The translations under genes and the position numbers were made by a program. DNA of 64,000 bases from Moraxellaceae bacterium (GTDB lineage: Bacteria; Pseudomonadota; Gammaproteobacteria; Pseudomonadales; Moraxellaceae): positions 187,723-251,722 of the forward strand of contig JAUSND010000012.1 of the NCBI GenBank assembly GCA_030646295.1, given 5' to 3'. Under the pieces are notes generated by a model. That model did not search any database and had not been told where the DNA came from. It saw only the letters and a list, made by a program, of their open reading frames with translations. Positions 50,363-62,692 of this stretch are shown here, one piece after another. Positions within the stretch are counted from its first letter, which is position 1. Each line of letters opens with the position of its first letter.

Positions 50363-53209
50363 ATGACACCTGCCCGGCGGTATCCCACTATCGGAAGAAT
50401 GGCGCCAAGGACTTCAATCTTGATCCTCTTTGATACACGCAAATCCCTGCGCTGTCTTTCCGCACGCCTGCTGGCGGCGCTGTGTGTGCTTGTCTGCATG
50501 ACAGGTCATGCGGCTGATCCTGCCGTGGCGCTTTTTTATGGCGCCAATCCGCCATGGGACGAGCTACGTGCCTTTGATGTGGTGGTGGTTGATCCCGATC
50601 ATGCGGGTCTGGATCCGCGCCCGCACCAGCATGTCGACAGCCAGGTGTTTGCCTATGTCAGCGTGGGCGAGGTACACCCGAGCCGGCCTTGGTTTGACGA
50701 GGTGCCGGCGGCATGGCGCAAGCAGGAAAACCCGGCATGGGGTTCACGCATCATTGACCAGTCCGCTGCCCAATGGCCTGCCTTTCTGGCGGAGCGCGTG
50801 ATTGCGCCACTGTGGGAGCAGGGTTATCGCGGCTTTTTTCTGGACACGCTTGATTCCTGGCAGCGGCTGGCCCGGACACCGGAACAGCGTGCACGCCAGC
50901 AGGCGGGCCTGATTGCGGCGGTGCGCGCGATCAAGCAGCGGTTTCCCGAGGCCCGTCTCATTTTCAATCGCGGTTTTGAAATCCTGCCGGAGGTACATGA
51001 CCTGGCCTGGATGGTGGCCGGTGAATCGCTGTTCCAGGGGCATGATCCTGCACGCGGTACGGTTACCGAGGTCAGCGAGACGGACCGGCAATGGCTGCTG
51101 GCCCGGCTGGGCGAAGTGCGTGAGCGCTACGGGCTGCCGGTGATGGCGATTGATTACGTGGCCCCGCACCAGCGCCAGCTGGCCCGTCAGACAGCCGAGA
51201 AAATCCGTGCCCTCGGCATGATCCCCTGGGTTACAACGCCGGCGCTGGATACCCTCGGTGTGGGCGCCATCGAGGTGCTGCCGCGCAAGGTGCTGGTGCT
51301 GTACAACCCGGCCGAAAGCCCGGATGTGTTTGTGTCGGAAGTGCAGCGCCTGCTGGCCATGCCACTGGCGTATCTGGGTCTGGTGATCGAGTACCTGCCG
51401 CTGACATCGGAGGTGCCGGCCATCGACTTGACCGGGCGCTATGCCGGCATTGTCAGCTGGCTGCGTGATCCGTCCGTGCTGGAAGGAACGGCATGGCCGC
51501 AATGGCTCAAGGCACAAACCGCCAAGGGCTTGCCGCTGGCGGTGTTCGGCAGCTTTGGCATGCAGCAGGATGTTGACGCCCTGCGCCAGTTCGGGGTGAC
51601 GCCACCTGCCACGCTGCCGGATGCCGACCTGCGCATAGTCACGCAGTCGCCGATGATGGGCTTCGAGCTGCCGCTGCGGCCCCGTGTGGTTGGCTTGCCG
51701 GCCGTGAAGCTGGCGGGCGAGGGCAAGCCCTTGCTCGGGCTGCAGTCGGCCGCAGGTGAACAGTGGCATCCGGCGGCACTGATGCCCTGGGGTGGCTATG
51801 TGCTGGCGCCCTACATGGTCGGCCAGATGCCCGGTAACCAGGGCGAGCGCTGGTACGTCAATCCTGTGGCATTCCTGCGTGCCGCACTGCGCATTGATGC
51901 GGCGGTGCCGGTGCCGGATGTGACCACGGAAAACGGGCGCCGCCTGTTTTTCTCGCACATTGATGGCGACGGGTTTCCCAGCCAGTTTGAGGGCGGGGGC
52001 TTCCGCTTTGCCGGGGAGGTCCTGCGTGATGAGGTGCTCAAGCGTTACCAGTTGCCGGTCACCCTGTCCGTGATTGAGGGTGAAGTGGGACCCAAGGGTC
52101 TCTATGCGCAATTGTCACCGCGTCTGGAAAAAACCGCCCGCGACATGTATGCCCTGCCATGGGTGGAGGCCGCCACCCATACTTATTCGCATCCGTTTTT
52201 CTGGAGTCAGGCCGAAGCGGCGGAAGAAGAGGGCTATCACCTTGCCATCCCCGGTTACCGTTTTGACATGGCGCGCGAAATCAGCGGCTCGGCCGATTAC
52301 ATCAACCGTAACCTGCTGCCGGCGGGCAAGCGTACCCAGGCGGTTTTCTGGACCGGCAATTGCGTGGCCACGGCCTCGGCCCTGGCCGAGGCAGAGCAGG
52401 CCGGTTTGCTCAACATGAATGGTGGCGAAACCACCATCACGCGCAGCCGCAATACCTGGGCGCGTATTGCCGGGCTTGGCTTGCAGCGTAATGGCCATTT
52501 TCAGGTGTTTGCGCCCAACCAGAACGAGAATGTCTACACCGGTAACTGGACGGGCCCGTTTTATGGTTTTGATCGCGTGATCGAAACATTCGAGCTGACG
52601 GATCGCCCTTACCGCTTCAAGCCGGTGAACCTGTATTACCACACCTACTCGGCCAGCAAGCCGGCATCGCTGAATGCCCTGCACCGCATTTATGCCTGGG
52701 TGGCCAGGCAGAACCTGCACCCGGTGTTTGCCTCCGACTACATTCGTAAGGTGCAGGACTTCAACCGCATGGTGATTGCCCGCACGCCTGACGGCTTCCG
52801 GGTGCGCGGTGACGGCCGCTTGCGTACCGTGCGCATTCCGGGGGGGCAGCCTGCAGCACCGGACTGGGCCGCCAGTCCAGGCCTTGCAGGTATGAGCCCG
52901 GCACCAGAGGGGCAGTACCTGCACCTGAGCGGCCCGGCGGCTGACCTGAAACTGACGGCACCGTCAGCAAAAGACGTGTATCTGGCCGAGGCCAACGCCC
53001 GCCTGTCCAGCTTTGAGCGCCGTGGCCGCGACCTGTATTTCGGGCTGGCCGGCAATGTGCCGCTGGCCTTTGCCCTGGGCAATGCGCAGGGCTGCCGTTT
53101 AACCGCAGGTGAAAAACTCCTGCATCCCCACCACAAGGCCGCAGGCCTTGACCACTATCGTCTGGAGCATCATGCAGAGTCGGCGTTTAAGCTCGATTGC
53201 GGCGCCTGA
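50363..53209 (+). CDS. pelA: Pel hydrolase/deacetylase
   Basis: PelA trims and deacetylates the cationic Pel polysaccharide in the periplasm. The longest frame has 948 residues. A signal peptide ends near residue 50. The glycoside hydrolase domain (about 52-300) has Asp161 (GFFLDTLDSW) and Glu221 (VAGESL), matching the P. aeruginosa active site. The deacetylase domain has Asp533/Asp535 (HIDGDGF) and His605/His609 (THTYSH). The start is unsettled: the ATGs at 50363 and 50399 lack a good ribosome-binding site, while a TTG at 50420 has AAGGA eight bases upstream and gives a normal signal peptide. Confidence 0.94.
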   Translation: MTPARRYPTIGRMAPRTSILILFDTRKSLRCLSARLLAALCVLVCMTGHAADPAVALFYGANPPWDELRAFDVVVVDPDHAGLDPRPHQHVDSQVFAYVSVGEVHPSRPWFDEVPAAWRKQENPAWGSRIIDQSAAQWPAFLAERVIAPLWEQGYRGFFLDTLDSWQRLARTPEQRARQQAGLIAAVRAIKQRFPEARLIFNRGFEILPEVHDLAWMVAGESLFQGHDPARGTVTEVSETDRQWLLARLGEVRERYGLPVMAIDYVAPHQRQLARQTAEKIRALGMIPWVTTPALDTLGVGAIEVLPRKVLVLYNPAESPDVFVSEVQRLLAMPLAYLGLVIEYLPLTSEVPAIDLTGRYAGIVSWLRDPSVLEGTAWPQWLKAQTAKGLPLAVFGSFGMQQDVDALRQFGVTPPATLPDADLRIVTQSPMMGFELPLRPRVVGLPAVKLAGEGKPLLGLQSAAGEQWHPAALMPWGGYVLAPYMVGQMPGNQGERWYVNPVAFLRAALRIDAAVPVPDVTTENGRRLFFSHIDGDGFPSQFEGGGFRFAGEVLRDEVLKRYQLPVTLSVIEGEVGPKGLYAQLSPRLEKTARDMYALPWVEAATHTYSHPFFWSQAEAAEEEGYHLAIPGYRFDMAREISGSADYINRNLLPAGKRTQAVFWTGNCVATASALAEAEQAGLLNMNGGETTITRSRNTWARIAGLGLQRNGHFQVFAPNQNENVYTGNWTGPFYGFDRVIETFELTDRPYRFKPVNLYYHTYSASKPASLNALHRIYAWVARQNLHPVFASDYIRKVQDFNRMVIARTPDGFRVRGDGRLRTVRIPGGQPAAPDWAASPGLAGMSPAPEGQYLHLSGPAADLKLTAPSAKDVYLAEANARLSSFERRGRDLYFGLAGNVPLAFALGNAQGCRLTAGEKLLHPHHKAAGLDHYRLEHHAESAFKLDCGA

Positions 53210-54086
53210 GCGCCGGCGCTTCATGTCACCGGCCCACATCCTCGGATTCGGGCTGGTGGTGGCGTTCGCCCTGTTGGCGGTCTATCCGGGGCAAAGTCTG
53301 GAGCGACGTATCCAGGCCACCGTGCAGGCCGACTCCTTGTCGCTGGTCTACCTGCAGGCGTGGCTGCGCGCCATGCCGGAAGACCATGCCTTGCGTCTGC
53401 TCGTGGCAAGACGCCTGCTGGCGCGCGGTGACCTGCCCGAGGTTGCCATCATGCTGCAGCCTTTGCTGAGCCGGGATGAGGCAGCGCTGGGGCAGTTTTT
53501 CCGCGAGGCGCAAATCCTCAAGCTGGATTTGCTGGTGCAGGAAATGTGGCAGATTCCGGTTGGCCAGCCCGGCTTCAGGGCGGCGCAGCAGCGGGTGGAG
53601 CAGCACCTGAACATGCTGGCCACCCATGACTGGGATGAAGACAACCTCAACCTGTTCATCCGCGAGGCACAGAGTGCCGGTGCCGCCGCTGCCGCACAGC
53701 CCTTCATGCATCGCCTGCTGGAAAAATACCCGCAGATGGCGCCGCAAATGCGCGAGCAGTTAACTGCCATGGAACTGGCCGGCGGTAATCCCCGTGCGGT
53801 GGCGGCCCTGTATTTCCAGGGCATGGACCAGTCCCGTTCAACGGCGGAGAAGCGTGAAAAATTCATTGCAGGCCTGCGTGTCCTGCAGGCGGGCGACCTC
53901 ATGGCCGAGGTGCCGGAAGCCGCACGCGTGCACGGGGCGGCACTGGAGAATGACCCGGCCACCCTTGAGTTCCTGACACGCCTGATGACGCAGGCCAATC
54001 GCATGGATCGTGCCGAATACTATGTGACACGGCTGCTGCGGCAGCAGACGGCCGAGGCGCGTGCCCTCCAGGAGTCACGACCATGA
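53172..54086 (+). CDS. pelB: PelB N-terminal part: inner-membrane-anchored TPR protein
   Basis: The product is 304 residues from the ATG at 53172 (GGAG upstream), overlapping pelA by 38 bases. A basic N-terminus (R-R-L..E-R-R-R-F) and one helix (about 20-37) make a type II membrane anchor. The rest is helical, TPR-like, and should lie in the periplasm. It corresponds to the N-terminal part of the single PelB of P. aeruginosa (about 1190 residues). The stop overlaps the next start (ATGA). A start at 53223 is possible but lacks a good ribosome-binding site. Confidence 0.78.
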   Translation: MQSRRLSSIAAPERRRFMSPAHILGFGLVVAFALLAVYPGQSLERRIQATVQADSLSLVYLQAWLRAMPEDHALRLLVARRLLARGDLPEVAIMLQPLLSRDEAALGQFFREAQILKLDLLVQEMWQIPVGQPGFRAAQQRVEQHLNMLATHDWDEDNLNLFIREAQSAGAAAAAQPFMHRLLEKYPQMAPQMREQLTAMELAGGNPRAVAALYFQGMDQSRSTAEKREKFIAGLRVLQAGDLMAEVPEAARVHGAALENDPATLEFLTRLMTQANRMDRAEYYVTRLLRQQTAEARALQESRP

Positions 54087-56878
54087 AGCGCAGTCTTGTC
54101 CTGATGGCGCTGTGCAGCAGCGTCGCACTGGCAGAGCCGGCTGCTTCGCCGCTTGATCTGACCAGCGCGCCCTCGGCGCCGTTTAATCAGGTACGCTTCC
54201 AGCTTGGCTACGATGTGTACCTGGCCAGCGGCAATCTGGCGGCGGCCTACCGGGTGGCGGAGCGCGGTGTGCAGGAGCGCCCGCGCGATGTCGAGTGGCG
54301 CCGTCGGCTGGCCACGGTCGCGCAGTGGCTGAACAAGCCGGAAGTGGCGCTGGCCAACTGGCTGGCCATTGCCCGCCAGACCGGCGACGCCGCTGCCTGG
54401 CGTGAGGTCGGGCGCATCGCCCCGGCCGTGGCGGACAGCGAGGCCATGCTGGCCTACTGGCAGCACGAACTGCAGCGCCAGCCGGGCAACGAAAAAGCAC
54501 TGAAGGCATTGCTGGCCTCCTATGAGCAGGCCGGGCGGCCGGATGAGGCACTGCTGGTGCTGAAGCGCCAGCCCCGCAGCCGCGCCGTGCTGGAGGCCGA
54601 AGCCGATCTGGCCGAGCGTACCGGTCATGACGAAGTTGCCGTGGCGGCGCTGCTGGAACTCAATCGCCGTTTTGGTCCTGAGGAAGCCTGGGTAGTGCGG
54701 GCGGCCGGCCTGCACCTGCAGCGTGGTCAGGTGGCCCAGGCCGAGGCCCTGCTGGCATCGGCCGAGCCTGCCATGCCGGCAACGGCCCTGCAGTTCTGGC
54801 AGTTGCGTGCCGATGTGGCCGAGCTCTCGGGTGATCAGGCGGCGGCGGTTCGCGCCTATGGGCGCATTGAGGCCAGTGGCAAGGCCAGTAGCGACAGCCT
54901 GACACGACAGGCGGATCTGCTGCAGGAAAAAGATCCCCTCGCGGCCGCACGGCTGCAAGTGCTGGCGTGGCAGACCGATCACAAGCCCGAAGCGGTGGAG
55001 TCCGCCCTGTACCACTGGTCAAGGGTCGAGGCATGGGCGCCGGCAGAGGCATTTCTGGCAACGCTGACGGCAGACGAGCTGGCCATGCTGGAGCAGCACC
55101 CCGGGTTTCTGCAGCAACGTGCCAACCTGCATCTGGCACGAGGCCGTGGCGATGCGGCCGGCCGCGACCTGCGCGCGGCCATGGCACTTGCGCCCCGGGA
55201 TAATTATTTGCGGCAGGCGTGGATGGCCTGGCTGGTCAGCCAGGGCGAACCGTCAGTGCTGCGCCGCATGCTGCAGGAAGGACGCAGTCAGGCAGCACGC
55301 CAGCCGGACCTCTGGCCGGTCTGGGCTGCGGGCTGGAACCGTCTGGATGCACCTGACCAGGCACTGCCGTGGCTGCAGGCACATTACCGGCTCAGGCGCG
55401 ATGACCTGAGTGCACTGGCGCTGGCCGATACCTTGCGTGCCGATGGCCGCGAGGCACAGGCGCTGGTGCTGGAACAGTCCGTATGGTCGCGCCGGCTGGG
55501 TGCGGCCCCGAGCTCGGCTGACCTGCAACGGGAATATGCCGATGCCCTGTTCCGTCTGCAGCTGGCTAGGCTACCGGTTGATCCGCGCCGGCAGGCGCTG
55601 CACACCCTGATCCAGCGTGAGCAGGGCAAGGATGGCCGTGTCAGGGAGTACGTGCGCGATCTCGTGCTGGGCGAGGCATGGGCCGGCGAGGCCATTGATA
55701 CCGAACCGCCACGGGTAGGCCGCGAGCTGCCGTCCGACCAGCCCCTGCCGCTGTGGTCGCAGCTGGGCACCGCCCTGCTGATGGACGATACCGCCACCCT
55801 GGAGACGCTGCTGGAGACCCCCGACCGCTTGCCCGCCAATGACCGTACGGTGGCCGCCATCCGGCTGGGCCGCACCGGACAGGCGAGCGAGCTGGCTGCT
55901 GACAGCGCCGAATCACGCCCGTATGACGATGTGGCCGACCAGTATCTGCAGGAGCGTATCTGGCGCGATGGCGACCGGGTGGATATCGCCATCCAGTACG
56001 AAGACTGGGATTCCCTGTACCGTGACATTCTCGCGGTCGATCTGGTGCATGGTCTGACCGAGCACCTGCATCTGCATCTGGCGCATGAGGCAGCAAGGCT
56101 GTCGAGTGACCCGCAGCAGATCCGCCTGCCCGAGGACCAGCAGGCTTTTTCGCTGGCCGGCCTCATCTGGCAGGGCGAGCGTCTCCGCATGGAGGGAGCG
56201 CTTACTTACCTCGATGGCATTGATGCTAATGCAGGATTGTACGGCGACCTGCAGTGGAACGCGTACCCGTGGCTGTTCGAGGCGCGCGGTGGTCTGGCGC
56301 AGCCGGCCACAGACACCGCCGGCCTGCGCGTCGGCGGCTACAAGGATTACCTGCAGCTGGGCACCAGCTGGCAGGTCACGCCCCGCAACAGCCTCCAGCT
56401 GCAGCTTGAGCACGCACTTTATTCTGCCCAGGCTGGCGACGGCGAGCTGGGCGATGCCGATACCCTGACCGCAAGCTGGCGCTACCAGCTCATGGGCGAT
56501 GTGGCCCTCATTACCCGCCTGGTCGAGCTGCAGTCGCAAGCCGAGTCGACCTTGCCGGCCAGCCTGCTGCCGGTACTGCCGGTGGGTGCACCGGCCAACC
56601 CTGCCTTTTTTGTGCCTGCCCCGTACACGCAGGCCGGATTCGGCATGGCCTTTAACGAGAGCGCCGAGGCCGGCTACCAGCGCCGCTGGCGTCCGTTCGG
56701 CCATGCCGGCCTGACCTATGACAGCGTCGTTGATCTGGGCTACGAGGGCCGCATCGGCGTGCTCGGTCCGGTGGTCGGGCGCGACCGCCTGCGCTTCTAC
56801 GCGTCAGGCAGCTATGGCGCCCAGGTCAATGCCGCTCCCAGCCTTACCCTGAATCTGGACTATCTGTTCTTCTACTGA
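54083..56878 (+). CDS. pelB: PelB C-terminal part: TPR and outer-membrane porin
   Basis: The product is 931 residues. It begins with its own signal peptide (M-K-R-S-L-V-L-M-A-L-C-S-S-V-A-L-A), unlike the single-chain PelB. Residues about 30-600 are TPR-type helical repeats, with many Ala/Leu/Trp helix pairs. About 640-931 is a beta-barrel that ends in an aromatic strand (N-L-D-Y-L-F-F-Y), the usual outer-membrane signature. It should form the export pore for Pel, with the TPR part holding PelA. Coupled to the previous gene by a four-base overlap. Confidence 0.88.
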   Translation: MKRSLVLMALCSSVALAEPAASPLDLTSAPSAPFNQVRFQLGYDVYLASGNLAAAYRVAERGVQERPRDVEWRRRLATVAQWLNKPEVALANWLAIARQTGDAAAWREVGRIAPAVADSEAMLAYWQHELQRQPGNEKALKALLASYEQAGRPDEALLVLKRQPRSRAVLEAEADLAERTGHDEVAVAALLELNRRFGPEEAWVVRAAGLHLQRGQVAQAEALLASAEPAMPATALQFWQLRADVAELSGDQAAAVRAYGRIEASGKASSDSLTRQADLLQEKDPLAAARLQVLAWQTDHKPEAVESALYHWSRVEAWAPAEAFLATLTADELAMLEQHPGFLQQRANLHLARGRGDAAGRDLRAAMALAPRDNYLRQAWMAWLVSQGEPSVLRRMLQEGRSQAARQPDLWPVWAAGWNRLDAPDQALPWLQAHYRLRRDDLSALALADTLRADGREAQALVLEQSVWSRRLGAAPSSADLQREYADALFRLQLARLPVDPRRQALHTLIQREQGKDGRVREYVRDLVLGEAWAGEAIDTEPPRVGRELPSDQPLPLWSQLGTALLMDDTATLETLLETPDRLPANDRTVAAIRLGRTGQASELAADSAESRPYDDVADQYLQERIWRDGDRVDIAIQYEDWDSLYRDILAVDLVHGLTEHLHLHLAHEAARLSSDPQQIRLPEDQQAFSLAGLIWQGERLRMEGALTYLDGIDANAGLYGDLQWNAYPWLFEARGGLAQPATDTAGLRVGGYKDYLQLGTSWQVTPRNSLQLQLEHALYSAQAGDGELGDADTLTASWRYQLMGDVALITRLVELQSQAESTLPASLLPVLPVGAPANPAFFVPAPYTQAGFGMAFNESAEAGYQRRWRPFGHAGLTYDSVVDLGYEGRIGVLGPVVGRDRLRFYASGSYGAQVNAAPSLTLNLDYLFFY

Positions 56879-56910
56879 CCGTGGGCCCGAGGCCTGCAAG
56901 AGAGGATGTA

Positions 56911-57450
56911 ATGCACTACGCACATTTCCTGAAACGACTGCTGATGCTGTTGCCGGTACTGGCGCTTGCCGCCTGTTCCACCCTGGAGACATCGCCGGCC
57001 CCGTCACTCGACACAGCCGCACGCTGGGCATTGCTGCCGGCCGTGAACAACACCGAAACCGCCCAGGCCGGCGGCCGTCTGGACGCCCTGACCGCCAGCC
57101 TGTTGCAGGCCCGTGGCATCAAGGACCTGCAGCGCCACCCCGGGTCCGGCAATGAAAGCCTGCTGGCGCCGGCGGATCGTGCTGCCCAGGATGCCGCGCT
57201 GGCATGGGCACGCAGCCAGAATGCCAAATATGCCGTGTATGGCTCGGTGCAGGAGTGGCGCTACAAGACCGGCCTCGATGGCGAGCCGGCAGCCGGCCTG
57301 ACCCTGACCGTGGTTGATGTGGCCAGCGGCAAGGTGCTCTGGACGGGCAGCGGTGCCCGTACCGGCTGGAGCCGCGAGGCGGTTGCCGCGGTTGCCCAGA
57401 AGCTGCTCGGCAGCCTGATTGATAAAGCCCTGTCCTCCACCAAGCCCTGA
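56911..57450 (+). CDS. pelC: Pel outer-membrane lipoprotein
   Basis: PelC has 179 residues from the ATG at 56911 (GAGAGGA upstream). The lipobox (L-A-L-A-A-C) puts lipid on Cys22. The mature part starts a compact alpha/beta domain and ends with a conserved Trp region (V-L-W-T-G-S-G). PelC forms a ring below PelB at the outer membrane and funnels the polymer. The length is near that of P. aeruginosa PelC (172). Confidence 0.92.
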   Translation: MHYAHFLKRLLMLLPVLALAACSTLETSPAPSLDTAARWALLPAVNNTETAQAGGRLDALTASLLQARGIKDLQRHPGSGNESLLAPADRAAQDAALAWARSQNAKYAVYGSVQEWRYKTGLDGEPAAGLTLTVVDVASGKVLWTGSGARTGWSREAVAAVAQKLLGSLIDKALSSTKP

Positions 57451-57461
57451 GCAGGAATAAC

Positions 57462-58799
57462 ATGCGCGCCTACCAGTCCTCACGACTCGCCGCCTGGTTT
57501 GCCCCCAAGCGAATCACCAAGGCCGGCATCATCGAGATCATCGGCCTGACACTGGCCGGCCTGCTGGTGGCCGCGCTGTTCCAGCCGGGAGATCCCTTCC
57601 TGCTGACACAGCCCTTCCCGTGGCTGTGGCTGGTGCCGCTGGTGCTGGCCCTGCGCTACGGCACCCCGGCCGCCTTCGGTTCCAGTGCCCTGCTGCTGAT
57701 TGGCTGGTATGCCCTGCCGCTGCTCGGGCTGGGTGGCGGGCGCCTGCCGCTGACGCATTTTGTCGGGGGTCTGGTGATGACCCTGATTGCCGGCGAGTTC
57801 TCCGATGTGTGGAGCTCGCGCCTGCGCCGGGTGGCCGACGTGAACGGCTATCTGGGCGAGCGTCTGGATGCCCTGACCCGTCGTCATTACCTGCTGCGCC
57901 TGTCGCATGACCGCCTGGAGCACGAGCTGCTGGTCAAGCCGCTGACCCTGCGTGATGCCCTGCAGGGGCTGCGCCGCCTCACGGTGCGCCGGCCCGAAGC
58001 CCTGCTGCCCGAGTCGGCGGAGCTGTTGCGTCTGGTTTGCCAGTCCAGCCAGATCGAGAAAGCCGGCCTCTACACGTTCAATGACGGCAAGCTGGACACC
58101 ACGCCGGTCGCATCGGCAGGCGACGCCGGCACACTGGAGACGGCAGATCCGCTCGTCCGCTCTGCCCTTGAGCACAAGCTGCTGTGCCATGTGCAGACAG
58201 AGGGTCTGCAACAGGAGAGCAGCCGCTACCTGGTGGTTGCCCCGGTCATGACCAGCGACAAGAAGCTGCTGGGATTGCTGGCGGTCGAGCGCATGCCCTT
58301 CCTGTCACTCAACGAAGAAAGCCTGCAGTTCCTCACCGTCCTGCTTGGCTATTACGCCGATGGCGTTGGCAATGCCCATGCGGTGCAGGCCATTCATGCC
58401 GCTGTGCCCGAGTGCCCCATCGTGTTTGCGGTCGAGCTCGCGCGGCTGCACCGCATTCACCATGATGTCGGCATCCACTCCATGCTCGCCGCGCTCGTGA
58501 TTGCCCCGGGCACCCACCAGAGCGAGATCGCCATCGAGGTCATGCGGCAGTCACGCCAGCTTGACCAGATATGGGATTACAACCACAACGGCCTGCGCAT
58601 CCTGATGACACTCATGCCGCTGCACGGTGAGCCGGCCATGGCAGGGTATCTGCAGCGCACAGAGGGCTGGTTGCATGCCAGTTTCGGCTTCAAGGATTTC
58701 CAGAGTGCGGGCGTCACGCCGGCCAGCATGCTGATTGGCAGCGTCGAGCCGGTGCACCTGTTGCGCAGCATGATCGAGAGGTGTGTCCATGGGCACTGA
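57462..58799 (+). CDS. pelD: Pel c-di-GMP receptor
   Basis: PelD has 445 residues. Four membrane helices (about 22-112) are followed by a coiled segment, a GAF domain (about 175-305) and a degenerate GGDEF domain (about 316-440). The catalytic GGDEF motif is lost (D-Y-N-H-N-G in its place), but the c-di-GMP-binding I-site is kept as RQLD at residues 365-368, with a further Arg near 399. Binding of c-di-GMP switches on the Pel synthase complex. AGGAAT precedes the ATG. Confidence 0.94.
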   Translation: MRAYQSSRLAAWFAPKRITKAGIIEIIGLTLAGLLVAALFQPGDPFLLTQPFPWLWLVPLVLALRYGTPAAFGSSALLLIGWYALPLLGLGGGRLPLTHFVGGLVMTLIAGEFSDVWSSRLRRVADVNGYLGERLDALTRRHYLLRLSHDRLEHELLVKPLTLRDALQGLRRLTVRRPEALLPESAELLRLVCQSSQIEKAGLYTFNDGKLDTTPVASAGDAGTLETADPLVRSALEHKLLCHVQTEGLQQESSRYLVVAPVMTSDKKLLGLLAVERMPFLSLNEESLQFLTVLLGYYADGVGNAHAVQAIHAAVPECPIVFAVELARLHRIHHDVGIHSMLAALVIAPGTHQSEIAIEVMRQSRQLDQIWDYNHNGLRILMTLMPLHGEPAMAGYLQRTEGWLHASFGFKDFQSAGVTPASMLIGSVEPVHLLRSMIERCVHGH

Positions 58800-59790
58800 G
58801 CTCAAGCTGGCACTGGCCGCCCTGGTAGCGGAAACAGCGGCAATTGCACTGCTGTTCCTGAACAGCTCGGACACGGCATTGCTGTATGAGTTTTTTCTGC
58901 TGCATGCCACGGCCAGCGCCCTTGCGGCGCCCTTTGTCTGGGCTTTCCTGCCGCCCCGTTACCGCCAGCCCCGGCTGGCAGTGCTGGCCTTGCTGTTCTG
59001 TGTCTGCTTTTTCATTCCGGTATTTGGTCTGGCCGGCTTCTTTGCCGGCGTCCTCATGGCCGTCTGGTGGCCACGCCTGCGCCGGGTGCGCTCGTTCAAT
59101 GAAGTCAGGACGCCGCGCTTCGAAGTGCAGCACGGGCCACAGAAAATGGGCACCCTCCGGCTGGGGCAGGTGCGCAACCAGCTGGCCAGTGCCACCGTCC
59201 CGCTGGATTTGCGCATGAAAGCTTTGCTTGCCCTGCAGGAGGTGCCGGGCCGTCATGCCTCCGAAATCCTGCGCGAGGTGATGGCTGATCCTGCCGACGA
59301 TCTGCGCCTGCTGGCCTTCGGCATGCTGGACAGCAAGGAAAAACTGATCAATGAACGTATCCATGTGGCCGGCGAAGCACTGAAGGCCGCGCGCGATCCC
59401 CAGGCCGAATATGCGGCCAGCAAGCAGCTGGCCGAGCTTTACTGGGAGCTGGTGTACCAGGGCCTGGTGCAGGGTGACATGCGTCTGTATGCACTGGAGC
59501 AGGCCAGAAAACATGTGACCAAGGCGCTGGCGCATCATCAGGCCGACGGCGGCCTGTGGGTTATCGCCGGACGCATGCGCCTGCTGGAAAAAGACTATGA
59601 AGGCTCCCTTGCCGCATTCGAGAGTGCAGTGAAAAACAAGTTTCCGCTGGTACGTATTGAGCCCTATCTGGCCGAGCTGGCATTCAGGCGTCACGACTTT
59701 GCTGCAGTGCGCAGGCACATGCAGAAAATCCAGCGTGAAGGACGCAGTCAGCAAATGGCACTGGTAGCCGATTTCTGGGGGCAGGCATGA
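58789..59790 (+). CDS. pelE: Pel inner-membrane TPR protein
   Basis: PelE has 333 residues from the ATG at 58789 (GAGAGG upstream), overlapping pelD by 11 bases. Two to three hydrophobic helices (about 5-90) are followed by a cytosolic helical part with TPR-like repeats (about 110-330). It holds the PelD-PelF-PelG complex together at the inner membrane. The length matches the P. aeruginosa protein (about 329). It overlaps pelF by ATGA. Confidence 0.92.
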   Translation: MGTELKLALAALVAETAAIALLFLNSSDTALLYEFFLLHATASALAAPFVWAFLPPRYRQPRLAVLALLFCVCFFIPVFGLAGFFAGVLMAVWWPRLRRVRSFNEVRTPRFEVQHGPQKMGTLRLGQVRNQLASATVPLDLRMKALLALQEVPGRHASEILREVMADPADDLRLLAFGMLDSKEKLINERIHVAGEALKAARDPQAEYAASKQLAELYWELVYQGLVQGDMRLYALEQARKHVTKALAHHQADGGLWVIAGRMRLLEKDYEGSLAAFESAVKNKFPLVRIEPYLAELAFRRHDFAAVRRHMQKIQREGRSQQMALVADFWGQA

Positions 59791-61313
59791 TCATTCGGAA
59801 GGCAAAAAAAGCCGACATCGGCTTGCTGCTGGAAGGCACCTTCCCGTTTGTCAGCGGCGGCGTATCCAGCTGGGTCAACCAGATCATTCGCGGATTTCCG
59901 CAGTACACGTTTGCCATCTGTTTTATCGGCAGCCGCCGCCAGGACTATGGCGACATGCGCTATGAGCTGCCGGACAATGTCGTGCATCTGGAGGCGCATT
60001 TCATCCATGATGCCGACAGCAACGCGCCGGTGGCGCCACGCACAGGCGACCCGCGCATGGCAGAAACAATGCGCGAACTGCACAGTTATTTCCGCGCGCC
60101 GAAAGCAGAAAAAGCAAGGAATCCCACGCAGGACATCGTCAAGGCCTTTCGCGAGGGCCGCTATTCCGAGCAGGATTTCCTGTACAGCAAGACCTCCTGG
60201 AACTACATCACGGAACAATACCGTGAGCGCTGCACCGATCCGTCCTTCGTCGATTATTTCTGGACCGTCCGCATCATGCATGCGCCGCTCTGGCAGCTCA
60301 TCCGGATTTCCGGGAATTTTCCGGAAGTGGGTGTCTACCATACAGTGTCAACCGGTTATGCCGGCTATCTGGGTGCATTGCTGCAACAGCATACGAACAA
60401 GCCCTTGCTGCTGACCGAGCACGGTATTTACACCAAGGAACGCAAGATCGATCTTTTCCAGGCGCAGTGGATCAGCGACAACCGCGGCGTGATGGAGCGC
60501 GATTCCTCCGAGATCGCCTATTTCCGCCAGATGTGGGTGCGCTTCTTTGATGTGCTGGGGCGTGAGTGCTATCAGCATGCCTCAAGAATCCTGTCCCTGT
60601 ACGAAACCAACCGGCAGCGCCAGATCACCGACGGTGCAGCGGCAGAGCGGACAGCATGCATTCCCAACGGCATTGATTATCCGCGGTTTGAGGCCGTGCG
60701 CACGCAGCGTGAGCCCGGCGTGCCGCACGTCATCTGCTTCATCGGGCGCGTGGTGCCCATCAAGGATGTAAAGACCTTCATCCGTGCCATGCGCACGGTC
60801 GTCAACCAGTTGCCAGATGTCGAAGTCTGGATTGCCGGGCCGGAAGAGGAAGATGCCGACTACGCGCGTGACTGCCACAACCTGGCTGAGGGCCTGGGGC
60901 TGGGCGCACACATAAAATTTCTCGGCCTGCAGGTGGTGGACGGCTTGTTGCCCAAGGTCGGCGTGGTGGTGTTGTCCTCCATTTCCGAAGCCTTGCCGCT
61001 GGTGGTGCTCGAAGCCAATGCCGCGGGCGTGCCCTGCGTGACGACGGATGTCGGTGCCTGTCGCCAGCTGATTGAAGGCATGGGCGACGAAGACCGTGCC
61101 CTTGGCGCCTCCGGTGCAGTGGTGGGCATTGCCAATCCCGAGGCGCTGGGTCGTGCCATTCTCGATCTGCTTACGGACAGCGAAAAATGGCATGCCGCCC
61201 AGCAAGCGGGTGTCGAACGTGTGCGCCGCTATTACACGGAGACCGGCATGCTGGAACAATACCGCGAGGAATATGCGTCAGCACTTGCCTTGCGTACGGG
61301 AGGAACTGCCTGA
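59787..61313 (+). CDS. pelF: Pel glycosyltransferase
   Basis: PelF has 508 residues, as in P. aeruginosa (507). It is a GT4-family enzyme that polymerises Pel from UDP-GalNAc/UDP-GlcNAc-type donors in the cytosol. Conserved parts are LLEGTFPFVSGGVSSWVNQ at the N-terminus, HGIYTKERKI, the phosphate-binding FIGRVVPIKDVKTFI and the E-x7-E motif SEALPLVVLEANA. It is translated from an ATGA overlap with pelE. Confidence 0.96.
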   Translation: MIIRKAKKADIGLLLEGTFPFVSGGVSSWVNQIIRGFPQYTFAICFIGSRRQDYGDMRYELPDNVVHLEAHFIHDADSNAPVAPRTGDPRMAETMRELHSYFRAPKAEKARNPTQDIVKAFREGRYSEQDFLYSKTSWNYITEQYRERCTDPSFVDYFWTVRIMHAPLWQLIRISGNFPEVGVYHTVSTGYAGYLGALLQQHTNKPLLLTEHGIYTKERKIDLFQAQWISDNRGVMERDSSEIAYFRQMWVRFFDVLGRECYQHASRILSLYETNRQRQITDGAAAERTACIPNGIDYPRFEAVRTQREPGVPHVICFIGRVVPIKDVKTFIRAMRTVVNQLPDVEVWIAGPEEEDADYARDCHNLAEGLGLGAHIKFLGLQVVDGLLPKVGVVVLSSISEALPLVVLEANAAGVPCVTTDVGACRQLIEGMGDEDRALGASGAVVGIANPEALGRAILDLLTDSEKWHAAQQAGVERVRRYYTETGMLEQYREEYASALALRTGGTA

Positions 61314-62692
61314 TGGCCGGCATCGGATTCGAACTGCGCAAACTCATGCGGCGTGACACCTTGCTCGGGCTCATGCAGACCTATGCCTACGCCGGCATCA
61401 TCAGCTCCGGCCCCTGGGTGCTTTCCATCCTTGGCATTCTTGTCATCGGTGTGATGTCGTTCTCGGTGGTCATCCCAGACATCCTGATCACGCAGTTCCA
61501 GGTCAGCGTGACATGGCTGATTGCACTCAGTCTCATCCTGACGGGTTTTGTGCAGCTGGCATTCACGCGTTATACAGCCGACCAGCATTTTGGCAAGCAT
61601 GACGGCACCATCCTGCCGGCCTTCAATGGCCTGCTGCTGTACCAGACGGCATTGTCTGGCCTGCTGGGTGCGCTGGCCGTGATTTTCCTGTTCCCGGAAC
61701 AGAGTGTCATGTACCGCCTGCTCATGCTGAGCGGCTTTGTGGTGATTTGTGATATCTGGCTGGCCGCCATTTTTCTGTCCAGCATGAAGCATTACAAGGC
61801 CATTCTCATCGTGTTTGCCATTGGCTATGGCATTGCCGTGTCTGCAGCATTGCTGCTGCGCCCGTTTGGTCTTGAGGGACTGCTGGGCGGTTTTGTGCTC
61901 GGCCAGTTTGTGCTTCTGATCGGCATGATAACGCTCATCCTGCGCAACTATCCCTCTTCAAAATTCATCAGCGCCAGTTTTTTCACCAGGAAAGACATTT
62001 ACTTCACCATGGTCGGTACCGGGCTTTTCTATAACCTCGGCTACTGGATAGACAAGTTCATGTTCTGGCTGCACCCCGCTACCGGTACCCAGGTGATCGG
62101 GCCGTTGCACTCCTCGCTGATTTACGACATTCCGGTGTTCATGGCCTACCTGTCCATTATTCCTGCGATGGCCGTGTTTCTGGTGAAAATGGAGACCGAT
62201 TTTGTCGAGTACTACAATCGTTTCTACGATGCAGTACGCGAGGGCAGCTCGCTGGAATACATCGAGACCATGCGCAACGAGATGGTGTATATCGTGCAGC
62301 AGGGTATTTACCAGATCATCAAGGTGCAGACGATTGCCGCGCTGGTGCTGTACATCGCCGCACCAGCCATTCTGGATTATCTGAACATTTCCGAGCTGTA
62401 CCTGCCGTTGCTGTTTGTGAACCTGGTGTCGGCCGGTTTGCAGGTGGTGTTCCTCGCCGTGCTGAACGTGTTCTTCTATCTCGACAAGCGCTGGGAAACC
62501 TTCTTTCTTACCGGCGCATTCGTGCTGCTGAATGGCGTGTTCACGGCCGTAACGCTGGCGCTCGGCCCCAAGTTCTACGGCTATGGTTTTGCCGTGGCCT
62601 TGCTGCTGGTGAACATGGCGGCGTTCTGGGTGCTCAATCGCAAACTGGACCAGCTGGAGTTTGATACCTTCATGATGCAGCGCGGGCACTGA
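61313..62692 (+). CDS. pelG: Pel inner-membrane flippase
   Basis: PelG has 459 residues (P. aeruginosa 456) and about 12 membrane helices. It is a member of the polysaccharide transporter family and is thought to move the growing Pel chain across the inner membrane. The start at 61313 is part of a TGATG overlap with pelF and has GGGAGGA upstream. The N-terminus M-A-G-I-G-F-E-L-R-K-L is typical. It closes the pel operon; no terminator was seen before the converging recG. Confidence 0.95.
   Translation: MAGIGFELRKLMRRDTLLGLMQTYAYAGIISSGPWVLSILGILVIGVMSFSVVIPDILITQFQVSVTWLIALSLILTGFVQLAFTRYTADQHFGKHDGTILPAFNGLLLYQTALSGLLGALAVIFLFPEQSVMYRLLMLSGFVVICDIWLAAIFLSSMKHYKAILIVFAIGYGIAVSAALLLRPFGLEGLLGGFVLGQFVLLIGMITLILRNYPSSKFISASFFTRKDIYFTMVGTGLFYNLGYWIDKFMFWLHPATGTQVIGPLHSSLIYDIPVFMAYLSIIPAMAVFLVKMETDFVEYYNRFYDAVREGSSLEYIETMRNEMVYIVQQGIYQIIKVQTIAALVLYIAAPAILDYLNISELYLPLLFVNLVSAGLQVVFLAVLNVFFYLDKRWETFFLTGAFVLLNGVFTAVTLALGPKFYGYGFAVALLLVNMAAFWVLNRKLDQLEFDTFMMQRGH

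Follow-up and report, generated by a model that had tools for sequence, protein, structure and literature searches.

How does one protein come to reach both membranes of a bacterial envelope, and does it have to be one protein? For PelB, which exports the biofilm sugar Pel, we know of no account of how a single chain would do so. The question is raised by a pel operon in a stretch of 64,000 nucleotides (nt) from a Moraxellaceae bacterium (GenBank assembly GCA_030646295.1, contig JAUSND010000012.1, positions 187,723 to 251,722 of the forward strand), the whole of which is called the window here. In place of pelB this operon has two genes, which we call pelB1 and pelB2. PelB of Pseudomonas aeruginosa is one chain of 1193 residues, whereas the operon here encodes two, and both carry an export signal. 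A 2025 structure paper on PelBC proposed that PelB may physically bridge both membranes (PMC12141448; this and the other published sources are cited for those parts of their text that were available). We consider it probable that PelB has been split at a boundary between modules of tetratricopeptide repeats (TPRs), near residue 285 of PelB of P. aeruginosa PAO1, into two co-translated chains that would each be exported and would rebuild the path non-covalently.

The original prediction described two open reading frames (ORFs) on the plus strand, encoding 304 and 931 amino acids (aa) and joined by an ATGA overlap; lengths, strand, overlap and coordinates all proved correct (Table 1). The pair sits between pelA and pelC, as expected of PelB, in a complete operon reading pelA, pelB1, pelB2, pelC, pelD, pelE, pelF, pelG. 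With two overlapping ORFs instead of a single polypeptide, the locus encodes 'PelB in two parts' and not PelB in the strict sense. pelB2 matched PF24604, 'PelB, C-terminal beta barrel domain' (E 1.1e-42, 147 bits vs a cut-off of 31), and also TPR families; a search of viral contigs with pelB2 gave no match. For pelB1 neither Pfam nor NCBIfam gave a match at E 0.01, and phmmer with the single protein against PDB sequences returned nothing meaningful. Profiles resolved its identity. A pelB1-type profile of 45 rows (split first products and fused N-termini) matched residues 4-287 of PAO1 PelB (chain 9h80_M) with E 2.9e-60, and a pelB2-type profile of 40 rows (pelB2 and fused C-termini) matched residues 284-1191 with E 5.9e-210. 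By alignment, the two products tile PAO1 PelB without a gap, and the break falls inside the TPR array. Because these profiles contained fused rows, we also built profiles from split rows only: with an E of at most 4.1e-16, the first-product profile matched all 24 fused PelBs at the N-terminus, and what remained of these 24 was matched by the pelB2 profile, colinearly with the first. The split-only pelB1 profile gave two weak extra matches at E 1e-4, the ORFs L098|47 and L137|2. With pelB1 as single query ten plasmid records were found; the best, from Cupriavidus metallidurans (E 4e-23) and the one ORF among the ten that was inspected, is the N-terminus of a 1404-aa fused PelB with anchor, TPR and barrel profile matches. 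The prediction that both products, the first included, would align to PelB was thus borne out.

Structural models agreed with this assignment. AlphaFold2 (AF2; 49 rows) modelled pelB1 as a hydrophobic helix at residues 20-37, a short helix and TPR-type helix pairs up to residue 302, and fused PelBs carry a hydrophobic helix at the same place. Foldseek with this model gave no PDB match at E 0.001 or better, the weak list consisting mostly of TPR solenoids. The N-terminus of P. aeruginosa PelB has been predicted to form an uncleaved transmembrane helix (PMC12141448, PMC12022489), and by homology we infer the same of pelB1. The 'anchored TPR protein' originally proposed is therefore present as to helix and repeats, while its anchoring is read across from PAO1. 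No sign of an AlgK-type lipobox was seen by eye: the pelB1 helix and the sequence following it lack Cys, and pelB2 shows no canonical lipobox. The pelB2 model (43 rows) had a mean predicted local distance difference test score (pLDDT) of 85.7 and consisted of unordered residues 1-30, TPRs, an alpha-rich region resembling that described for P. aeruginosa PelB (PMC12022489), and strands, of which 16 were counted when only those of three or more residues were taken. The long TPR region (36-470) and the C-terminal barrel (16 strands, PF24604) that had been expected of the second product are both there. Its top Foldseek match was the PelB chain 9h80_M (TM-score 0.82 on the target, 2.9 Å). The pair is homologous to P. 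aeruginosa PelB (PA3063; PDB 9h80, 5wft) over its whole length, from the N-terminal helix through the TPRs and the alpha-rich region to the barrel of 16 strands, and shares its pel operon context.

Does the second chain have its own route out of the cytoplasm? A start was scored as an export signal if it combined a basic n-region, a 9-residue uncharged core near the start and small residues at -3 and -1. This rule was matched by the window pelB2 start and by 44 of 47 second-gene starts (36 from the window and the barrel-search loci described below, 11 from the PelF-similarity sample, some from the same assembly; L076, with a run of Ns, and L254, with frame breaks, were omitted). As a control, the internal start codons of these genes were scored too, and 27 of 2295 matched. 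The barrel genes of three-gene loci matched in 10 of 14 cases. In sequence terms each product bears an export signal, and the most natural assumption is that pelB1 stays uncleaved and that the signal of pelB2 is removed. What had been called a cleavable signal peptide of pelB2 is thus upheld as an export signal, with cleavage a further, predicted step.

To learn how often this arrangement occurs, pel loci were surveyed, as the original prediction had proposed. PF24604 was found above its cut-off in 14 of 199 genomes drawn from the window's family, 23 of 390 from its order, 17 of 369 from its class and 16 of 398 from its phylum, and in 19 of 31 and 3 of 5 genomes from the orders of genomes G847 and G925; the draws overlap. 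With the window, the 79 regions taken (one of them, G1070, below the cut-off) made 80, which three local profiles sorted into 25 fused, 23 two-gene, 15 three-gene, 11 incomplete, three without a barrel ORF and three without an anchor match. Inspection by hand moved L076, which contains a run of Ns, from three-gene to two-gene, and moved three loci to fused: L095 (anchor and TPR profile matches, a PF24604 barrel and a hydrophobic N-terminus) and L103 and L132 (one ORF each, 1192 and 1094 aa long, which starts with a hydrophobic helix but gave no anchor-profile match). The final classes were 28 fused, 24 two-gene, 14 three-gene, one odd (L129) and 13 unclassifiable. A second sample, the best 80 loci by PelF similarity and hence biased towards the window, held 59 fused loci (58 by script and L147, misfiled through an over-long start), 11 two-gene and 10 incomplete. 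The 11 came from two Moraxellaceae metagenome-assembled genomes (MAGs), eight Alcanivorax/Alloalcanivorax records and one unassigned Proteobacteria MAG.

The reading frames of pelB1 and the second gene overlap by 4 nt at 44 of 47 junctions and by 1 nt at the other three. A Shine-Dalgarno-like motif as in the window is not universal, since at 20 junctions listed a match of 5-6 bases was present in five, of 4 bases in six and absent in nine. Both halves are under purifying selection, like the remaining operon genes, with ratios of nonsynonymous to synonymous substitution rates (dN/dS) of 0.07 and 0.11 vs L079, and 0.21 and 0.17 vs L083, where dS exceeds 1. That a sequencing error was unlikely, as first supposed, is supported by L079, L083 and L076: the layout is repeated in these three further genomes of the genus and in other families, and the split is therefore no error of a single genome.

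A few loci departed from these classes. Two-gene loci L112 and L254, of one family, show additional frame breaks in pelB2, with the L254 barrel in several pieces, from either decay or sequencing error. The odd locus L129 (5972-7876, reverse-strand numbering) encodes a 634-aa barrel protein with a signal-like N-terminus and also a 317-aa PelA-like ORF. In L081, L086 and L107 a PF24604-type barrel occurs, but the surroundings fetched showed no pel genes; possibly these are relatives of the PelB barrel in other systems.

The three-gene form divides PelB once more. All 14 loci (L115, L236, L237, L239, L241-L248, L251, L253) belong to the order of G847, in which L249 has two genes. The pieces are an anchored TPR protein of ~280-320 aa and a TPR protein of ~540-620 aa, both measured from the first start, and a barrel protein of ~470-590 aa where the start was not over-extended; in L253 the barrel gene runs past the contig end. 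Successive genes overlap by 1-8 bases, and the second and third mostly appear to bear their own export signals. By profile, the middle piece matched PAO1 PelB 300-719, and the published PAO1 TPRs end at 726 (PMC12022489). A profile of five barrel-piece rows gave no PDB match, so that the evidence for the second break point comes from the middle piece and the local barrel profile. By eye, 11 of 14 loci with pelG have an NAD-dependent epimerase-like ORF 3' of it; the other three regions stop at or just after pelG. The same arrangement after pelG was described for Acidithiobacillus caldus and A. thiooxidans (PMC5852609, PMC4331095), and by this resemblance to Acidithiobacillales we infer that the order of G847 is Acidithiobacillus-type. 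The A. caldus operon was called complete from pelA to pelG, the available text making no mention of extra pelB genes (PMC4331095). Its locus tags are RS00180 for pelA, RS00195 for pelB and RS00200 for pelC (PMC7237784); if tags step by five, two further genes would separate pelA from 'pelB', which is what a three-gene layout would lead one to expect. Pel reportedly shapes the biofilm of A. thiooxidans, as judged from a pelD mutant (PMC5852609, PMC7825692).

How might two chains do the work of one? We propose that PelB1 enters the inner membrane through its hydrophobic anchor, holding the first TPRs near the PelDEFG synthase, where it would take the polymer and hand it onward. PelB2 would be exported by its own signal peptide, with its barrel presumably set in the outer membrane and its alpha-rich region encircled by a PelC ring; it would carry the remaining TPRs, including those that bind PelA in P. 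aeruginosa. In that species the PelA-binding repeats are TPRs 9-14 and the PelC ring surrounds the barrel end (PMC12022489, PMC12141448), and both regions map onto pelB2. End-to-end docking of the PelB1 and PelB2 TPRs, possibly only during secretion, would restore the trans-envelope path, so that a bridge is likely built from two (or three) chains.

The TPR segments on either side of the break were among the better conserved ones in 12 split rows: conservation as high as or higher than that of PelB2 34-100 occurred in 1 of 373 windows of the same length, and than that of PelB1 262-292 in 17 of 211. Several points weigh against the proposal. In fused rows the same comparison gave 22 of 373 for PelB2 34-100 and 2 of 211 for PelB1 262-292; as the junction is conserved there too, conservation is no specific proof of docking, and fits two modules meeting there in both architectures. 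Contact between PelB1 and PelB2 is hypothetical, and Pel production by the window's host is predicted from its genes. The anchored part is retained in 64 of 67 classifiable loci by profile, in L103 and L132 by the hydrophobic helix, and was not found in L129, but the two-gene class requires an anchor match, so that retention is partly built in. Draft genomes and MAGs supplied many of the loci. The rule for signals was set by hand, not taken from SignalP; it rejected 3 of the 47 second-gene starts and, among barrel genes, 4 of 14. With position freed, it was also matched by 36 of 49 split anchors (window included) and 74 of 86 fused anchors; since anchors pass it too, the rule detects export signals but cannot separate a cleaved signal from an anchor.

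The most serious alternative, which we nevertheless regard as unlikely, is that PelB1 is an accessory of the synthase that never docks with PelB2, the polymer crossing an open periplasmic gap with no PelB bridge. Two observations speak for it: fused PelBs, mainly of Burkholderiales, hold long and poorly conserved stretches exactly at the split site, and PAO1 PelB 762-1193 assembled with PelC when given a foreign signal peptide (PMC12141448). Yet in every one of the 67 loci except L129 the anchored part adjoins the remainder of PelB, and the TPRs at the junction are conserved. Measured in 86 fused ORFs, the distance from the end of the anchor-module profile to the following profile was 0-418 residues, the largest values being partly profile gaps, and the pooled composition of this stretch was close to that of whole PelB; long stretches occurred mainly in Burkholderiales. 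L164, L162, L170, L199 and other Burkholderiales-type loci have variable linkers of up to ~330 aa at the split site, that of L164 being Asn-Ala-rich. Such linkers imply that even in a fused PelB the two modules can do without a rigid connection.

It is improbable, in our estimate, that the pelB1 helix is instead a cleaved signal peptide, which would release the TPR protein into the periplasm in soluble form. After or inside the window pelB1 helix one can place a loose signal-peptidase-like site, as in the 36 of 49 split anchors, but such sites are equally found in the 74 of 86 fused anchors, and the PAO1 helix is predicted to be uncleaved (PMC12141448, PMC12022489). We rejected as very improbable a programmed frameshift making some full-length PelB besides the two chains: the pelB2 frame is open for 38 codons upstream of its ATG, but no slippery motif was seen by eye at the junction, a read-through product would hold an internal signal peptide, and 4-nt overlaps are typical of coupled re-initiation. 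Still less credible is a decaying pseudogene pair, which the fragmented barrel of L254 might suggest but which dN/dS of 0.07-0.21 for both halves and an intact barrel model of pelB2 contradict. A sequencing or assembly frameshift in an ordinary fused pelB has practically nothing left to recommend it: the assembly is a draft, and L076, L112 and L254 show a run of Ns or an extra break, but the same junction recurs in many assemblies, with the ATGA overlap at 44 of 47, and no correction of frame would explain an export signal at the second start.

Table 1. Features of the pel operon, in positions of the 64,000-nt window.
Feature	Position	Strand	Description
pelA	50363..53209	+	948 aa; overlaps start of pelB1
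pelB1	53172..54086	+	304 aa; N-terminal PelB module with hydrophobic anchor
pelB1 hydrophobic helix, residues 20-37	53229..53282	+	AF2; probable uncleaved inner-membrane anchor
pelB1 TPR-type helices, residues 55-302	53334..54077	+	AF2, mean pLDDT 90.3
AGGAG Shine-Dalgarno-like motif	54070..54074	+	inside pelB1 end, 8 nt upstream of pelB2 ATG
ATGA stop/start overlap pelB1/pelB2	54083..54086	+	4 nt, TGA of pelB1 on ATG of pelB2
pelB2	54083..56878	+	931 aa; outer-membrane part of PelB; PF24604 and PAO1 profile match
pelB2 Sec-type signal peptide	54083..54133	+	cut predicted after residue 17 (ALA/EPAAS); rule-based; low AF2 confidence at residues 1-30
pelB2 TPR region, residues 36-470	54188..55492	+	AF2; corresponds to PAO1 TPRs after ~284, including PelA-binding repeats
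pelB2 alpha-rich region before barrel, residues 479-629	55517..55969	+	AF2
pelB2 16-strand beta barrel, residues 632-930	55976..56872	+	AF2, PF24604, Foldseek
pelC lipoprotein	56911..57450	+	weak LpoB-type match and position
pelD	57462..58799	+	PF16963
pelE	58783..59790	+	assigned from its position and from homology between pel loci; without a Pfam match
pelF	59787..61313	+	NF038011
pelG	61313..62692	+	PF16933; start chosen by eye

When and in which direction did the split arise? Trees of joined PelA, PelF and PelG with 49 and 63 rows were built by a quick method with SH-aLRT (Shimodaira-Hasegawa-like approximate likelihood-ratio test) support only. The 63-row tree grouped the window's family with Alcanivorax-type rows (98), among fused Burkholderiales rows and separate from the remaining fused rows that belong to the order of the window, which suggests horizontal transfer of the window pel operon (50363-62692). 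On this tree, in which two deep branches are weak (19) and the root and the direction of deep changes are unsettled, at least three changes were needed for fused vs split and six for fused, two-gene and three-gene. In the 49-row tree (where L122 was labelled fused, a label corrected afterwards) the fused loci L084 and L085 (G005, G021) grouped with split L078 inside the family's split rows (100). This nesting among split rows suggests that L084 and L085 are re-fusions; no relic of a signal peptide was seen at their join. A general search for such relics at fused junctions found a more hydrophobic stretch than the control in 29 of 86, which was unconvincing, and the idea was rejected. Separately, in L173, L175 and L183 (Gallionellaceae/Sideroxydans-type) the fused junction has a hydrophobic stretch ending in a signal-peptidase-like motif, which could be chance or an internal processing site.

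A wider proposal, whose chances we put at slightly below even, is that PelB is a modular, non-covalent conduit with natural breaks at PAO1 ~285 and after 719, cut repeatedly and probably re-fused at least once, for which a continuous tether is not needed. The first break would divide the inner-membrane TPR module from the rest of PelB, and the second the TPR array from the alpha-rich and barrel part; in the order of G847, the three proteins of PelB would be the anchored TPR module, a TPR scaffold free in the periplasm, and the barrel.

Precedent exists for parts of this. The Foldseek list of the pelB2 model included BcsC (9b8a, 6tzk) and 4y25, which we take to be PgaA, and we know of no separate anchored TPR piece for either. 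Both carry TPRs and barrel on a single chain (PMC9384988). In the alginate system, also synthase-dependent, the TPR-type scaffold AlgK and the export barrel AlgE are separate, as here (PMC9734138, PMC9384988), but AlgK is an outer-membrane lipoprotein and the break lies between scaffold and barrel, whereas here it lies inside the TPR array and the first piece has an inner-membrane helix. The possibility that a split PelB was already widely described turned out to be partly true: the split is widespread, and 'pelB fission' was reported in 2020 for 'aquatic thermophilic species' in the legend of Fig 5(iii) of PMC7112194, so that there too PelB comes from more than one gene. That paper treats fission as an event of operon evolution, and its available text says nothing on where PelB breaks or on signal peptides, topology or mechanism. 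In the open-licence literature we found no description of separate targeting signals, break points or a three-gene PelB. PelB fission itself is thus already in print; the separate export signals and the three-gene form are new as far as we found.

The original prediction held that the split would change how the inner- and outer-membrane parts of the Pel machine are joined. To judge from the genes, covalent continuity is lost in these lineages, and that much of it holds; that the joining of the membranes changes with it is a proposal. Separate anchor and barrel proteins, each with an export signal, bear directly on the proposed PelB bridge, since covalent continuity can go, and in these lineages a membrane bridge probably does not depend on one unbroken chain. 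Split PelBs also offer ready-made pieces for structural work, with break points that mark module boundaries; in the three-gene form, the product of the last gene resembles the construct engineered for cryo-electron microscopy, PelB 762-1193 with an added signal peptide. If PelB is indeed a modular conduit, Pel secretion would not call for an unbroken PelB link from one membrane to the other.

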